Translations under genes and position numbers: made by a program
Assembly: GCA_020850615.1 (NCBI GenBank)
Contig: JADZEI010000036.1
Location: 1 to 48,158 of the forward strand
DNA length: 48,158 nt
Source: Dehalococcoidia bacterium
GTDB taxonomy: Bacteria > Chloroflexota > Dehalococcoidia > Tepidiformales > Tepidiformaceae
Direction: 5' to 3'
Part shown: positions 41,224 through 48,158 of the stretch, piece after piece
Numbering within the stretch: position 1 is the stretch's first letter
How the letters are laid out: every line of letters begins with the position of its first letter
Notes under the pieces: generated by a model
The model's input: the letters and a program-made list of their open reading frames with translations, nothing else
Database searches by the model: none
What the model was told of the DNA's origin: nothing

Positions 41224-41284
41224 CCGGGCCGGGGCACGACCGGCGCCGCATGGTTCGGGTGCGTGTGCGAACGAACCCGCAACC

Positions 41285-41301
41285 GCGACACGACCTGTCG
41301 C
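41285..41301. promoter_or_regulatory. Inverted repeat upstream of the cas operon
   Basis: GCGACA-N5-TGTCGC is a perfect inverted repeat 38 bp before the cas3 start. An outer pair GGTTCG/CGAACC lies upstream, around 41252-41277. Either could be an operator for cas expression. No clear -35/-10 pair is visible. Confidence 0.4.
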
Positions 41302-41338
41302 ACTGGTAGCCTACGCTCCCGCGCGAAGGAGCCAGGCC

Positions 41339-43529
41339 ATGCATGACGGACCGTGGGCACACTCGAAGAACGAGCGGGGCGAGCGGGACCCGCTGGTAAC
41401 GCACCTCCGTGACACCGCGGAGCGGGCGCGCGAGTTCGCAGCTGCCTTCGGCGCCGAAGACCTCGCCGGGCGGCTGGGCCTCTGGCACGACCTCGGCAAG
41501 TTCCACCCGGACTGGCAGGACTACCTCCTCCGGGCGGAGGCGTGGGATGCCGCTGGACGGAAGACCCCGCGCCCGAAGTCGACGGACCACAAAGCCGCCG
41601 GTGTGCACCTGGCCTTCGAGGCGGGCGCGGCGCTCTACGCGTTTGCCCTCGAAGGCCACCACGGCGGCATGAAGGGCCTGTCCTGGACGAGGGACGTGCC
41701 GCATGACCCCGTCCGTGGCCCCGTCGCCAGCGGGGCGCTGACCCTCGCCCGGGCCGCGGTGCCGGACCTGGCCCCCGATGCGGCGATCCCGCTCCCGGCG
41801 TTCATGCAGGGCGCCCCCGAGGAAACCTACGAGCTGTTCGTCCGCATGCTCTTCTCCGCGCTCGTGGATGCGGACTTCCTCGACACCGAGGAGCACTTTC
41901 ACCCCCCACCGGGCCGGTGTGCGCGGCAGCGGCGTCACGCTTGCGGACCTCTGGGACCGGCTCGCAGCTGACGAAGCCGCTCAGCGCGCAGCCGGGCGCC
42001 GCCCGCCTGGCCTCGTGAACGACGTACGCAACGAGGTCCTCGAAGCCTGCCTGGCAGCGGCCGCGCAGCAGCCCGGGTTCTTCCGGCTGACCGTCCCCAC
42101 CGGCGGCGGCAAGACGCGCTCCGGCATGGCGTTCGCCCTCCGCCACGCCCTGGCCCACGGCTTGCGGCGCGTCATCGTGGCAGTCCCGTTCATCACCATC
42201 GCGAAGCAGACGTCCGACACCCTGGCCTCGGCGTTCGACTCGCCCGTGCCGGACGATGTCACCGGCGAGCTCGCCCGGGTGTTCCCTGCGGCTGCGCTCA
42301 TCCAGCACTACACCGGCGGGCTGGAAGACGACGCCGACCATCGCCGGAAGCTGGCGGCCGAGAACTGGGATGCGCCGATCGTCGTCACCAGCACCGTCCA
42401 GCTCTTCGAAAGCCTCTTCTCGAACAGGCCGTCCGCCTGCCGCAAGCTCCATCGACTCGCGCGGTCCGTGATCATCCTGGACGAGGCCCAGTCCCTCCCG
42501 CCCGGGTTGATCGAGCCGATCCTCGACGTGCTCCGCGCGCTCGTCCGTGACTACGGCGCGAGCGTTGTCTTCTCGACCGCGACGCAGCCCGCCTTCGAAA
42601 CGATCCGCGGCTTCGGCGAACTCAACGCCCGCGAGATCGTCCCGCAGCACCCAGCGCACTTCGAGGCGCTGCGCCGGGTCCGCTACACCCACGTGTCCGA
42701 GCCCCTGCCCTGGGACGCGGTGGCCGCGCGCATGCTTGCGGCGCCCGCGGCGCTGGCGATCGTGAACACCCGCAAGCATGCCGCGGAGCTGTTCGACGCC
42801 GTTCGTGAGCAGGCGCCCGCGGGCTCCGTCTTCCACCTCTCCACACGGATGGTCCAGCGCCACCGCCAGGAGGTGCTGGACGAAGTCCGGCAGCGGCTCG
42901 AGGACGGCCTGCCGTGCTATCTCGTATCAACATCTGTTGTAGAGGCCAGCGTCGATGTCTCGTTCCCGCTCGTCCTGCGGGCGCTCGCGCCGCTGGATGC
43001 GATTGTCCAGGCCGCCGGCCGCTGTAACCGGCACGGGGAGCTGGGCGTCGAAGGCGGGGAGCTGGTCATCTTCGAGCCCGTCGACGCGGCGATGCCGCCC
43101 GGGCCCTACCGCACCGGCGCCGGCATCATGCAGGGCGTGCTCGCCAGCGGCGACGACATCTTCGCGCTCGCGACGCAATTCGATTACTCGCGCCGCTTCT
43201 TCGACAACCTGGACAAGGATGGGCCGAACATCCAGGAGCTCCGCAGGAGCTTCGACTACCCGCAGGTGGCGAAGGACTTCGCCATGATCGAGCCCACCGC
43301 CTCGGTCGTCGTCCCGGCCACGGATCCGTCCGGGCGAGCGTCCGAGGTGCTGGCGCTGGTCGCGTCGCGCCAGACCACGCGTGCCGATATGCGCGCGCTC
43401 CAGCCGTTCATGGTCTCCCTCCCCCAGCGCGAGTTTGGCCGGCTGGTCACCGGTGGGGTGGTCCGGGAGTTTGCGGCCGGCCTCGGCGAGTGGCTCGGGG
43501 CATACGGAGACGCGGGGATCGTCGTCTAG
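41339..43529 (+). pseudogene. cas3: cas3, type I-C HD nuclease-helicase, interrupted by a frameshift
   Basis: The gene starts at ATG 41339 (AAGGAG site). The first frame, to 41971, encodes the HD nuclease: H22 in THLRDTAE, H50-D51 in LWHDLGK, H84 in TDHKAAG and H107-H108 in EGHHGG. It breaks in a run of six C at 41902-41907. One C fewer would join DTEEHFHP to HRAGVRGSGVTLADLW and continue to 43529. The second frame encodes the DExH helicase: VPTGGGKT, ILDEAQSLP, STATQPAF, STSVVEASVDV and QAAGRCNRHG. All motifs are intact apart from the shift. It may be a sequencing error, a true mutation, slippage, or separate Cas3'' and Cas3' proteins. Confidence 0.85.
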
Positions 43530-43549
43530 CTACCCGCGGAACGCGGTAG
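43530..43549 (+). terminator. Imperfect hairpin after cas3
   Basis: CTAC-CGCG pairs with CGCG-GTAG around a GAA loop, with one bulged C, directly on the cas3 stop. There is no T-tract, so it may be a processing or stability element rather than a terminator. Confidence 0.35.
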
Positions 43550-43570
43550 TCCGTGGAGCACGTGGCTGGC

Positions 43571-43645
43571 GGAGGTGAGCGCCTGTGGATTGAAACGGGT
43601 TATCAGGTGATACGCGGAAGGAGGTGGGCGGCTGTGGATTGAAGC
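43571..43645 (+). repeat. Two degenerate CRISPR-repeat-like units between cas3 and cas5c
   Basis: Two 26-bp copies, 43571-43596 and 43620-43645, differ at 3 positions and share GGAGGTG and CTGTGGATTGAA. Their 3' ends match the GGATTGAAAC end of the array repeats and, more closely, the GTGGATTGAAAC of standard type I-C repeats. The 23 bases between them contain TATCA-GG-TGATA (43601-43612). The remaining operon junctions overlap or are only 2 bp, so this 149-bp structured gap is unusual. A crRNA-like regulatory RNA is a possibility. Confidence 0.7.
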
Positions 43646-43678
43646 TCAGGCGATGGACCAACTACAGGAGGTATACCC

Positions 43679-44353
43679 ATGGAACGACACAGCTCCGCAC
43701 TCTCCCTGAGGGTGTGGGGCGAACTTGGATGCTTCACCAGGCCGGAGCTGAAAGCCGAGCGCGTCTCGTACCCGGTCATCTCGCCGTCCGCCGCGCGGGG
43801 CGTCCTGGAGGCCATCTACTGGCATCCGGAGATGCAGTGGGTCGTGCGGCAGATCGACGTGCTGAACCCGATCGCGTACTTCAGCATCCTTCGCAACGAG
43901 ATCACATCCCGGCAGTCGGACCGCGTCGCTGCCACATGGGCGAAGGACGGGCGCGGCGGCTACGACGCTGCCGGCGACCGCAGCCAGCGTCACACGCTCG
44001 CCCTCCGCGATGTCGCCTACGTCATCCACGCGGACGTGCGGGTCGCGCCGGGCATCGACGAGCACCCCGCGAAGTTCCGGGACCAGTTCCGCCGCCGCGT
44101 CGAGCGCGGTCAGTGCTTCGCGACGCCCTACCTTGGCTGCCGGGAGTTCAGCGCGTCCTTCGGCCCCGCGGACCAGGACGTGGACAAGCCGATCGCCGGC
44201 CTGACGATGGACCTGGGGCGCATGCTCCTGGACATCGACTACACCCCCGGGCACCAGCTCAAGGGCGGCGGCCTCGGCAAGCCCCGCTTCTTCGATGCGA
44301 AGCTGCAGGAGGGCGTCCTGCTCGTCCCCGACCGGTTCGCGGAGGCCGCCTGA
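43679..44353 (+). CDS. cas5c: Type I-C Cas5 (Cas5d) repeat endoribonuclease
   Basis: A 224-aa protein after a strong AGGAGG site. It matches Cas5d: LRVWGELGCFTRPELKAERVSYPVISPSAARG at the start, then QRHTLALRDVAYVIHA, and the C-terminal GCREFSASFG. In type I-C, Cas5 replaces Cas6, cuts pre-crRNA at the repeat base and stays on the 5' handle in Cascade. The stop shares one base with the cas8c start. Confidence 0.95.
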   Translation: MERHSSALSLRVWGELGCFTRPELKAERVSYPVISPSAARGVLEAIYWHPEMQWVVRQIDVLNPIAYFSILRNEITSRQSDRVAATWAKDGRGGYDAAGDRSQRHTLALRDVAYVIHADVRVAPGIDEHPAKFRDQFRRRVERGQCFATPYLGCREFSASFGPADQDVDKPIAGLTMDLGRMLLDIDYTPGHQLKGGGLGKPRFFDAKLQEGVLLVPDRFAEAA

Positions 44354-46065
44354 TGCTCCCCGAGCTGAAGGAGTACGGCGTGCGCCAGCGCGACGTGGCC
44401 CCGCTCCTCTACCAGAACATCTCCGTCCGCTATGTGGTCGAGCTCAACGGCGACGGGACGCTGCGCAACCCGGTACCGATTGACCGCGCCACGGGTGCCG
44501 GCAAGAGCCGGTCCGAGCGGGGCACGGTCGAGTCCGTCCCGAACCTGACGCGGACGTCGTCGCCGGTGGCGCTGCCGTTCGCCGATGGCTCCGACTACAC
44601 CTTCGGGGTCGACCCCAAGGGCCAACCGGCGAAGCTCGCAGCCCGGCACCAGCTCTACGTCAAGGCCGTCGAGGAGTGCGCCGAGGCCACCGGCGAGCCG
44701 GCCGTCCGCGCCGTCCTCGCCTTCCTGCAGCGCGGGGCCTGGCCCCGGTTCCCGGACGACTTCGACTACGGGGCCGAGGTCACGTTCTCCGTCGACGGCG
44801 TGAAGCCCGCGGAGCTGCCGTCGGTACACCGGTTCTGGGTCGACCGCTACCGCCGGTCGCTCGAAACCCTGCCGGAGCAGGAGTGCGTCGTCTGCGGCCG
44901 CCGCGACCACGCGGTCGACACCTACCCGGGCCGCGTCAAGGGCGTGCTCGGCGGCCAGTCGGCCGGGACGGCGCTGGTCTCGGCGAATACCGATGTCTTC
45001 GAGTCCTACGGGCTCAAGGGATCGCAGATCGCGCCCACCTGCCTCGAATGCGCCGACGGGCTCACCAAGGGGCTGAACCACCTCATCGCGGGTCAGAAGA
45101 CCCACCTCTACCTTGGCGGCAGCACGTTCATCTTCTGGGCACGGTCGGGAGAGCTGCCGTTCGACCCCAACACGCTGATGACCGACCCCACCAGCGAGAC
45201 CGTGCAGGACCTGCTCGCCAGCGTCCACTCGGGCCGGATCCCCGCCCACATCGCCGCCGACCGTTTCTTCGCCGCGCCGTTGACCGGCAGCGGGGGCCGG
45301 ACGGTCGTGCGCGACTGGATCGACACCACGGTCGGCGAGGTAGCTGCGAACCTCGCGGACTGGTTCGACCGCCAGCGCATCGTCGACTGGGACGGGGCGG
45401 AGGGCGCCCCCTTCGGCCTCCGACAGCTCGCCGGCGGCACCATCCCGCTGCGCCGCGCAGGCCCCGACTGGGACCGCCTGCCGGCCACCGTATCGCGCGC
45501 GATGTTGCGGGCGGCGCTCACCGGTGCGCCCCTGCCGCCCGACATCCTCTATCGCGCCGTGCAACGCACGCATGCGGAGCGCAACGTCCGGCGCGTCCAT
45601 GCCGCGCTCATCAAGCTCTCGCTGCTCGCCCAGCGTGACGTAACGAAGGAGATAGCACCCGTGTCCCTGAACCCGGACCACCCGGCCGCCGCTTACCACT
45701 GCGGCCGTTTGCTCGCCGTGCTCGAAGAGGCGCAGCGCGCAGCCATGCCACGCGTCACCAACACCATCGTCGACCGGTTCTATGGCGCCGCGTCGAGCTC
45801 GCCCGCCAGCGTGTTCGGCCGCCTCTTCCGCGGCGCCCAACCGCACCTCTCGACCCTCGAGAACAGCAACCGCGGCGCGTTCATCGCCATCCAGCAGAAG
45901 CTCGAAGAGGTCTCCAGCCGGATCGACGACGACTTCCCGGCGACGCTGACGCTCAAGGAGCAGGGGCTGTTCGCCCTGGGCTATTACCACCAGCGCGCCC
46001 ACCGCAACCCCCGGCACGACAAGCCGTCTGCCAGCGATCCCCAGAACGCCCCCGAGGAGGACTAA
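44353..46065 (+). CDS. cas8c: Type I-C Cas8c (Csd1) large Cascade subunit
   Basis: A 570-aa protein from the ATG at 44353 (TGATG overlap). It matches Csd1/Cas8c: LKEYGVRQRDVAPLLYQNISVRYVVEL, FGVDPKGQPAKLAARHQLYV, and a Cys4 site CVVCGRR...CLECADG, probably zinc. It recognises the PAM and recruits Cas3. The length is usual for the family. It is known that I-C cas8c can also yield a small subunit (Cas11c) from an internal start. I did not identify that start with confidence here, though the C-terminal 120 residues would be the source. Confidence 0.94.
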   Translation: MLPELKEYGVRQRDVAPLLYQNISVRYVVELNGDGTLRNPVPIDRATGAGKSRSERGTVESVPNLTRTSSPVALPFADGSDYTFGVDPKGQPAKLAARHQLYVKAVEECAEATGEPAVRAVLAFLQRGAWPRFPDDFDYGAEVTFSVDGVKPAELPSVHRFWVDRYRRSLETLPEQECVVCGRRDHAVDTYPGRVKGVLGGQSAGTALVSANTDVFESYGLKGSQIAPTCLECADGLTKGLNHLIAGQKTHLYLGGSTFIFWARSGELPFDPNTLMTDPTSETVQDLLASVHSGRIPAHIAADRFFAAPLTGSGGRTVVRDWIDTTVGEVAANLADWFDRQRIVDWDGAEGAPFGLRQLAGGTIPLRRAGPDWDRLPATVSRAMLRAALTGAPLPPDILYRAVQRTHAERNVRRVHAALIKLSLLAQRDVTKEIAPVSLNPDHPAAAYHCGRLLAVLEEAQRAAMPRVTNTIVDRFYGAASSSPASVFGRLFRGAQPHLSTLENSNRGAFIAIQQKLEEVSSRIDDDFPATLTLKEQGLFALGYYHQRAHRNPRHDKPSASDPQNAPEED

Positions 46066-46067
46066 CC

Positions 46068-46994
46068 ATGGCCATCTATACCGACCCGAAGCGCCGCCAC
46101 GACTTCGCCCTGCTGTTCGACGTGAAGAACGGCAACCCGAACGGCGACCCGGACGCCGGGAACCTCCCCCGGGTCGACCCGGAGACGATGCAGGGCCTGG
46201 TCACGGACGTGGCGATCAAGCGCAAGGTGCGCGACTGGGTGGACGTCGCCCACGGCGGGGAAGCGCGCAACAAGATCTACGTCCAGCACGGCCAGTACCT
46301 CACCGAGACGCGCACCCGTGAGTTCGACGCGCGGGCCGGCAAGGGTGCAAAGCCGTCGGCGAAGGACGCGGAGGAGTGGATGTGCGAGGCGTTCTTCGAC
46401 GTCCGCATGTTCGGAGCGGTGCTGCCCATCAAGGGCAGCGACTCGGGGCAGGTGCGCGGGCCGATCCAGCTCACCTTCGCCGCCTCCATCGATCCCATCG
46501 TCCCGCTCGAGGCGGCGATCGTGGGCCCGGCGCAAAACGCCGAGCAGTCCAAGCGCACGAGGGCGCCCAAGGAGGGCGAGGCCGAGACCGACGAGGGGGA
46601 GGCCCGCGGGACGATGGGCCGCAAGGCGTTCGTACCGTACGGGCTTTACCGCGCGCACGGCTTCTTCGTGCCGGCCTTCGCCGCCCGCACCAAGGTGACC
46701 GAGGCGGACCTGGACCTCTTCTGGACCGCCCTCCAGCAGATGTGGGACCTCGACCGCTCCGCGACCCGCGGCGAGCTCGCCCTGCGCGGCCTCTACGTCT
46801 TCAGCCACGAATCGTCGCTCGGCAACGCGCCCGCGCACACGCTGTTCGAACGGGTCACGGTGGACCCGGTGATCCCCTCGGCCGGTGGCGTCGATGTCCG
46901 GCCGCCGCGCTCGTTCGCCGACTACAGCGGCCGCGTCCTGGTCGACGATTCGGCGCTGCCGGCGGGCGTGGCGCTGACGCGACTGGTCGGCTAA
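46068..46994 (+). CDS. cas7c: Type I-C Cas7 (Csd2) Cascade backbone subunit
   Basis: A 308-aa protein starting two bases after cas8c. KRRHDFALLFDVKNGNPNGDPDAGNLPRVDP is the diagnostic Csd2 N-terminus, and MFGAVLPIKGSDSGQVRGPIQL follows. Several copies would line the crRNA in Cascade. A charged loop (AEQSKRTRAPKEGEAETDEGEA, about 163-184) is longer than in many homologues. Confidence 0.96.
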   Translation: MAIYTDPKRRHDFALLFDVKNGNPNGDPDAGNLPRVDPETMQGLVTDVAIKRKVRDWVDVAHGGEARNKIYVQHGQYLTETRTREFDARAGKGAKPSAKDAEEWMCEAFFDVRMFGAVLPIKGSDSGQVRGPIQLTFAASIDPIVPLEAAIVGPAQNAEQSKRTRAPKEGEAETDEGEARGTMGRKAFVPYGLYRAHGFFVPAFAARTKVTEADLDLFWTALQQMWDLDRSATRGELALRGLYVFSHESSLGNAPAHTLFERVTVDPVIPSAGGVDVRPPRSFADYSGRVLVDDSALPAGVALTRLVG

Positions 46995-46996
46995 CC

Positions 46997-47590
46997 GTGG
47001 ACACCGGCCGCGACCCGGCCGGCGAAGGGGCGGAGATCGACATACCGATCTCCGCCCTCGAGCACTTCTCGTACTGCCCCCGGCAGTGCGCGCTCATCCA
47101 CGTCGAGCAGACGTTCCAGGAGAACGTCTTCACCGTGCGCGGCCAGATCGCGCACCGCCGGGTGGACCACGCCGCTGACACGGTCGCCCGTGGCATCGCC
47201 CACGTGCGCAGCCTGGAGCTCTGGTCGGAGCGGTACGGGCTTCGCGGCAAAGCCGACCTGGTCGAGTTCCGCCCGGAGGGGCCCTACCCCGTGGAGTACA
47301 AGTCCGGCCCGGCCGTCGGAGGCCACGCCGACATCCAGCTCTGCGCACAGGCGCTCTGCCTCGAAGAGATGTTCGGGCAGCCCGTGGCGGCGGGCGCCGC
47401 CTTTTCCCACGCCGACCGGAGACGCCACCCCGTGCGGTTCACCTCCGAACTCCGTGCGGCCACCGAAAGCGTCATCGAAGCCGTCCGCGGGCAGATCGCG
47501 CGGCAGGAGCTTCCGCCCGCCGCCGACGACGCGCGCTGTCCGACCTGCGGGGTCGGGCAGCACCCGCTCCCCGGAGCGGGTGAGGATTGA
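46997..47590 (+). CDS. cas4: Cas4 exonuclease with C-terminus replaced by CRISPR-repeat sequence
   Basis: A 197-aa frame starting at GTG 46997. It has the Cas4/RecB nuclease features: first Cys pair in HFSYCPRQCALIH, RGQIAHRRVD, GLRGKADLVEF, VEYKSG and QLCAQALCLEEM. The final iron-sulfur motif normally reads C-x2-C-x5-C. Here CPTCGVGQH has His in place of Cys, and the last dozen codons lie in the first CRISPR repeat (starting 47557), with the stop also inside it. So the fourth cluster ligand is missing. Cas4 selects PAM-bearing prespacers with Cas1-Cas2, neither of which is present here, so this copy is probably inactive in adaptation. Confidence 0.88.
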   Translation: MDTGRDPAGEGAEIDIPISALEHFSYCPRQCALIHVEQTFQENVFTVRGQIAHRRVDHAADTVARGIAHVRSLELWSERYGLRGKADLVEFRPEGPYPVEYKSGPAVGGHADIQLCAQALCLEEMFGQPVAAGAAFSHADRRRHPVRFTSELRAATESVIEAVRGQIARQELPPAADDARCPTCGVGQHPLPGAGED

Positions 47591-48158
47591 AACGTTGTGG
47601 ACGGTACGCCCCAGCAAGCACGGGTAACTGCAGCGCCCGCTCCCCAGAGCGGGTGAGGATTGAAACGCCGAAATCGGCGACCGTCGCGTTGCCCGCAGTC
47701 GCCGCAGCGCCCGCTCCCCGGAGCGGGTGAGGATTGAAACTAGGGGTCAGGCGCTGGCAAGAGTCCGCTAGGTCCTCGCAGCGCCCGCTCCCCGGAGCGG
47801 GTGAGGATTGAAACGTGACTCCTTCACCCCTAGTCAGGGTTTCCCCCGAGCAGCACCCGCTCCCCGGAGCGGGTGAGGATTGAAACTCCTCGGTGCGCGC
47901 CGTATCCCCCGCGCTCTCGTGGCAGCACCCGCTCCCCGGAGCGGGGGAGGATTGAAACGCGCGCGGGCGGCGCCGTAGAGCTCGTGAAGCCAGTCGCGCA
48001 GCACCCGCTCCCCGGAGCGGGTGAGGATTGAAACGGCAGGATGGCAGCTCATCGTCTTTCTCGGCGACGCAGCACCCGCTCCCCGGAGCGGGTGAGGATT
48101 GAAACACGACCAGCGTGGTCATCTCGAACCCCGCGGCGTTGCAGCAGCCGCTCCCCGG
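47557..48158 (+). CRISPR. Type I-C CRISPR array (at least 9 repeats, continues past window end)
   Basis: The 37-bp repeats start at 47557, 47630, 47704, 47778, 47850, 47922, 47998, 48069 and 48141 (the last cut by the window end). Spacers are 36, 37, 37, 35, 35, 39, 34 and 35 bp. The unit begins GCAGCACCCGC, has a perfect GC stem (CCCGCTC/GAGCGGG) and ends GAGGATTGAAAC. Repeats 2-4 have G for A at position 6, repeat 2 also has an A in the stem loop, repeat 6 has T to G before GAGG, and repeat 9 starts GCAGCAGCC. The 3' GAAAC fixes the direction as left to right. No leader is present. Confidence 0.97.

Follow-up and report, generated by a model that had tools for sequence, protein, structure and literature searches.

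What occupies the interval between cas3 and cas5c in a type I-C operon whose genes otherwise follow one another closely? The question was raised by the window considered here, i.e. the whole stretch of 48,158 nt that was analysed, in which this interval carries two degenerate copies of a CRISPR repeat. Its features are collected in Table 1.

Layout of the operon

NCBIfam profiles supported the gene calls for both parts of Cas3 (HD and helicase) and for Cas5c, Cas8c, Cas7c and Cas4, and the profile matches indicated intact effector genes. Coordinates confirmed a gap of 149 nt (43530-43678) from the cas3 stop to the cas5c ATG, as well as the tightness of the other junctions: cas5c and cas8c overlap, and cas8c/cas7c and cas7c/cas4 are each separated by 2 bp. 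Neither cas1 nor cas2 was seen before the contig ended inside the array at 48158. The frame of cas3 is broken after ~41888, near a C run at ~41905; this may be a real frameshift, a split gene or an assembly error. The hairpin reported after cas3 was also recovered (CTACC-CGCG-GAA-CGCG-GTAG). It is devoid of a T tail. No terminator-like site was found in the gap, and neither was a sigma-70-like promoter.

Table 1. Features of the type I-C operon and of its cas3-cas5c gap (positions in the window)
Feature	Position	Strand	Remarks
cas3	41339..43529	+	two overlapping frames: HD part 41339-41971, helicase part 41778-43529; TIGR01596 and TIGR01587
hairpin	43529..43550	+	directly 3' of cas3 stop, no T tail; -10 kcal/mol, z -2.1
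unit 1, degenerate CRISPR repeat	43571..43596	+	13-nt handle TGTGGATTGAAAC at 43584-43596 (array counterpart TGAGGATTGAAAC)
spacer-like stretch 3' of unit 1	43597..43613	+	GGGTTATCAGGTGATAC
candidate target of unit 2 guide	43600..43611	+	PAM-like TTA 43600-43602, then TCAGGTGAT 43603-43611
unit 2, degenerate CRISPR repeat	43620..43645	+	handle TGTGGATTGAAGC at 43633-43645
spacer-like stretch 3' of unit 2	43646..43662	+	TCAGGCGATGGACCAAC
cas5c Shine-Dalgarno	43666..43672	+	AGGAGGT, from sequence
cas5c (Cas5d), type I-C repeat-processing subunit	43679..44353	+	TIGR01876, E 2.8e-42
cas8c/csd1	44353..46065	+	TIGR01863, E 4.4e-93
cas7c/csd2	46068..46994	+	TIGR02589, E 2.5e-83
cas4	46997..47590	+	TIGR00372, E 8.8e-30; 3' end overlaps first array repeat
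CRISPR array	47557..48158	+	repeat GCAGCACCCGCTCCCCGGAGCGGGTGAGGATTGAAAC; runs off contig end; Rfam CRISPR-DR9

Two units derived from the array repeat

The two 26-nt units of the preliminary description were found as described, with starts 49 nt apart; 23 of their 26 bases are identical, and no further copy was present in the 48-kb window when up to three mismatches were allowed. Their 3' ends, GTGGATTGAAAC and GTGGATTGAAGC, proved to be the handle found in the array repeats of this system (TGAGGATTGAAAC). The corresponding motif GGATTGAARC occurred at ten sites in the window (0.05 expected), eight of them in the array and two in the units. The palindrome TATCAGGTGATA was likewise located between the units, at 43601-43612.

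Both units have lost the 5' stem part of the array repeat. As previously remarked, they lack an equivalent of its strong stem: folding energies were -18.6 kcal/mol (z -3.0) for the array repeat, versus -10.9 and -7.0 kcal/mol (z -0.6 and -0.7) for the units. Identity to the array repeat amounted to 21/37 and 19/37, the repeat period was 49 nt in the units versus 71-76 in the array, and the Rfam model CRISPR-DR9 recognised the array repeats and not the units. The intact stemmed repeats and normal spacer length of a canonical mini-array were thus missing here. A repeat-like unit lying outside the array and near the cas genes of its own system is, on the other hand, what characterises CreR, a cas-regulating RNA.

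Units in related type I-C loci

Cas5c served as bait to collect 134 type I-C loci. A unit was present in 18 of the 30 cas3-cas5c gaps measuring 140-900 nt, and in none of the 88 gaps shorter than 140 nt. Handle units are conserved at this junction, mostly as single copies, and a two-unit arrangement was also encountered in locus L055. The loci concerned belong to Chloroflexota, Poribacteria, Planctomycetota, Salinivenus, Alpha- and Gammaproteobacteria and Desulfarculales; no close relative carrying the window's own units was found. Array repeats could be read in three Chloroflexota genomes (L007, L008 and L010), where they end in GTGAGGATTGAAAC, like the unit handles. Most gaps of the relatives start with a TTGACA-type promoter.

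In locus L055, the last 75 nt before cas5c contain two tandem handle-plus-spacer units repeated at a period of 31 nt, and a complete target of 16 nt lies further upstream; this locus shows that two units can occur together with a full target. In L050, L086 and L098 the handle-like units, which have good targets beside a TTN PAM, are on the opposite strand from cas5c.

These loci also bear on an earlier suggestion that each unit contains a start-Asp-stop minimal reading frame serving as ribosome trap or toxin. Both units do show GGAGGTG followed by GTGGATTGA (43585-43593 and 43634-43642). However, GTGGATTGA belongs to the common ends of I-C repeats, GGAGG was not conserved in relatives, and relatives with good targets carry GAGGATTGA, devoid of start codon and Shine-Dalgarno sequence. 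The reading frame is best regarded as incidental to the repeat sequence GTGGATTGAAAC; a function of its own is hardly credible.

Guide-target matches upstream of cas5c

The spacer-like stretch following the handle varied between loci while the handle itself was conserved. In 14 loci (L007, L008, L010, L050, L055, L078, L080, L086, L097, L098, L112, L125, L131 and L132), approximately 16 nt after the handle matched a nearby site upstream of cas5c, beside a TTN PAM. L009 also had a matching site, with GTG in place of the PAM, and L013 and L042 possessed a unit and no significant target in the gap or the adjoining cas3-side stretch. For handles outside arrays, all 14 matches with a TTN PAM lay at most 1 kb upstream of cas5c, versus 16 of 113 matches with other PAMs.

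Mismatches in these 14 loci concentrated at positions 6 and 12 (23/28, versus 13/196 elsewhere; p = 1.2e-17). They were counted unmasked, as a mask ignoring positions 6, 12 and 18 would bias the pattern. No phase other than 6 was significant, the excess was absent from the 113 control matches with other PAMs, and beyond position 16-17 identity was no higher than background. The same mismatch phase emerged when nine confident loci were searched separately, again unmasked (p = 5e-10). A test independent of register showed that 18-mers having a second strong match within the gap are over-represented behind handle-like sequences (odds 51, p 2e-11). L009 and L010 belong to one family; their spacers are unrelated, and each matches a target of its own, which points to a joint change of guide and target. 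At L097 the target directly adjoins the -35 box.

Type I effectors flip out every sixth base of the guide and leave it unread, so that the observed mismatches are those expected of binding by Cascade; no other mechanism is envisaged for them. The pattern in the relatives, read from sequence, appears to be the signature of Cascade pairing over a length too short for destruction, and such short pairing should avoid recruitment of Cas3. Most likely, the units of the relatives encode short guide RNAs aimed just upstream of their own cas genes and would constitute a self-made brake.

Cas5c being the type I-C repeat nuclease, repeat-derived units in the cas5c leader might alternatively be processing sites, at which Cas5c would cut the polycistronic cas mRNA and part cas3 from the effector genes. 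This is very unlikely: unit stems were poor, the units of L050, L086 and L098 are oriented against cas5c, and processing alone would not predict that the relatives have targets, PAMs and period-6 mismatches.

Candidate target of the window's own units

The guide of unit 2 (TCAGGCGATGGACCAAC) had one site in the 48-kb window at which seed positions 1-5 and 7-9 were matched 8/8. This site, TTA followed by TCAGGTGAT (43600-43611), is situated between the units and reads TCAGG-x-GAT, with position 6 mismatched; its chance probability in shuffled gaps was P = 0.0015. The PAM-like triplet is TTA rather than the canonical TTC, and no pairing was found there past position 9. Over the full length the match was not significant (10/16, P 0.40; P 0.2-0.36 for 18 nt). 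For the guide of unit 1 (GGGTTATCAGGTGATAC), neither the gap nor the cas3 promoter nor the window as a whole yielded a target. The cas3 promoter (41224-41338), previously suggested as a target, was in fact matched by neither unit. Genome-wide, no full-length target beyond chance was detected for either unit. The few sites with at most two mismatches included one with a TTC PAM, at the end of an apparent small coding gene, and another at a gene start; the near matches examined look like coincidences.

The seed match is located inside an imperfect tandem duplication, in which the units together with TCAGGYGAT can be aligned over 41 columns if one 6-nt gap is allowed, and part of the match could be explained in this way. 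That the whole arrangement is a plain tandem duplication before cas5c, without crRNA function and with the seed match as its by-product, is nevertheless improbable: it leaves unexplained both the identity with the array handle and the occurrence of handles at this place in other phyla, where units are usually single.

As a candidate target was found for unit 2 only, the window copy may be weak or decaying. In the extreme case, it would be an inert remnant of CreR-type origin or a relic mini-array, its target and promoter lost. The lack of any full-length target beyond chance in gap, cas3 promoter, window or genome is consistent with this, as are the promoterless gap, the weak stems and the two frames of cas3. 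Against it stand the almost intact state of both 13-nt handles, the 8/8 seed with a TTN PAM retained by unit 2 and the intact effector genes, and complete inertness is considered rather unlikely. On grounds of its origin and position, the window element is classified as a probable member of the CreR type, whether active or decaying.

Relation to known cas-regulating RNAs

Standalone repeats and mini-arrays partly complementary to cas promoters were reportedly described by Shmakov et al. (2023, Nucleic Acids Res.), mostly in type I and V-A systems and possibly including I-C. The I-C units belong to this computational class. CreR-type guides are known as a kind, the published cases consulted being of types I-B, I-E and V-A (PMC13131331, PMC12737573). 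The likeness consists in a degenerate repeat near cas genes, the absence of a toxin and, in the 14 relatives, a short guide that partly matches DNA upstream of those genes next to a PAM. In contrast to the published cases, the window and its relatives are of type I-C, with Cas5c as processing enzyme and often a single unit, and the candidate target in the window is restricted to the seed. The I-C unit lies between cas3 and cas5c and would therefore affect the effector genes separately from cas3.

The preliminary description had instead drawn an analogy with CreA, the RNA of type I-B CreTA, for which a toxin gene is required and whose PAM is TTC in the haloarchaeal case (PMC9458426). One or two degenerate repeats and a short, partly matching guide are common to both, and the two-unit shape of the window resembles creA (PMC9458426). 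An antitoxin RNA guarding a toxin gene, as in CreTA or CrePA, is nonetheless most implausible in these I-C loci: no toxin-like gene was seen in or beside the 149-nt gap, the targets of the relatives lie upstream of cas5c, and those genome-wide near matches of the window units that were examined look coincidental. The analogy was consequently not upheld; CreR is the nearer relative, because no toxin gene was seen and the targets lie upstream of cas genes.

Proposed mechanism and significance

The idea of a crRNA-like regulator in this I-C operon is well supported by the relatives, through their conserved handles, changing spacers, TTN-PAM targets and mismatches at every sixth position; in the window itself only a seed match was found. 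We consider it moderately probable that the two units are the degenerate repeats of a CreR-type element (a cas-regulating, crRNA-like RNA) repressing cas5c-cas8c-cas7c. RNA transcribed across the gap would be trimmed, and the handle with about 16-17 nt loaded into Cascade (Cas5c-Cas8c-Cas7c). The complex would then bind the partly matching site by its TTN PAM upstream of cas5c and block transcription of cas5c-cas8c-cas7c without triggering Cas3. Since Cascade would block its own genes, free Cascade would limit its own synthesis. Repeat-derived handles, their conserved place before cas5c and the targets, PAMs, mismatches and length cut-off in relatives form the basis of this scheme, from which we infer transcription, processing and repression.

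As a tentative possibility, type I-C systems of several phyla may share an undescribed feedback, in which a CreR-type guide from the cas3-cas5c gap, in some cases part of the leader of the mRNA it represses, holds Cascade output apart from Cas3; in the window, the guide of unit 2 would target the stretch between the units. If this holds for the family, CRISPR self-repression by crRNA-like guides would extend to type I-C, a subtype used in genome editing, and would be recognisable from sequence alone by the handle, the TTN PAM, the period-6 mismatches and the 16-17-nt limit. Long cas3-cas5c gaps would thereby be accounted for, and L055, L078 and L097 would offer test loci for how a system controls the level of its effector and responds to anti-CRISPR proteins.
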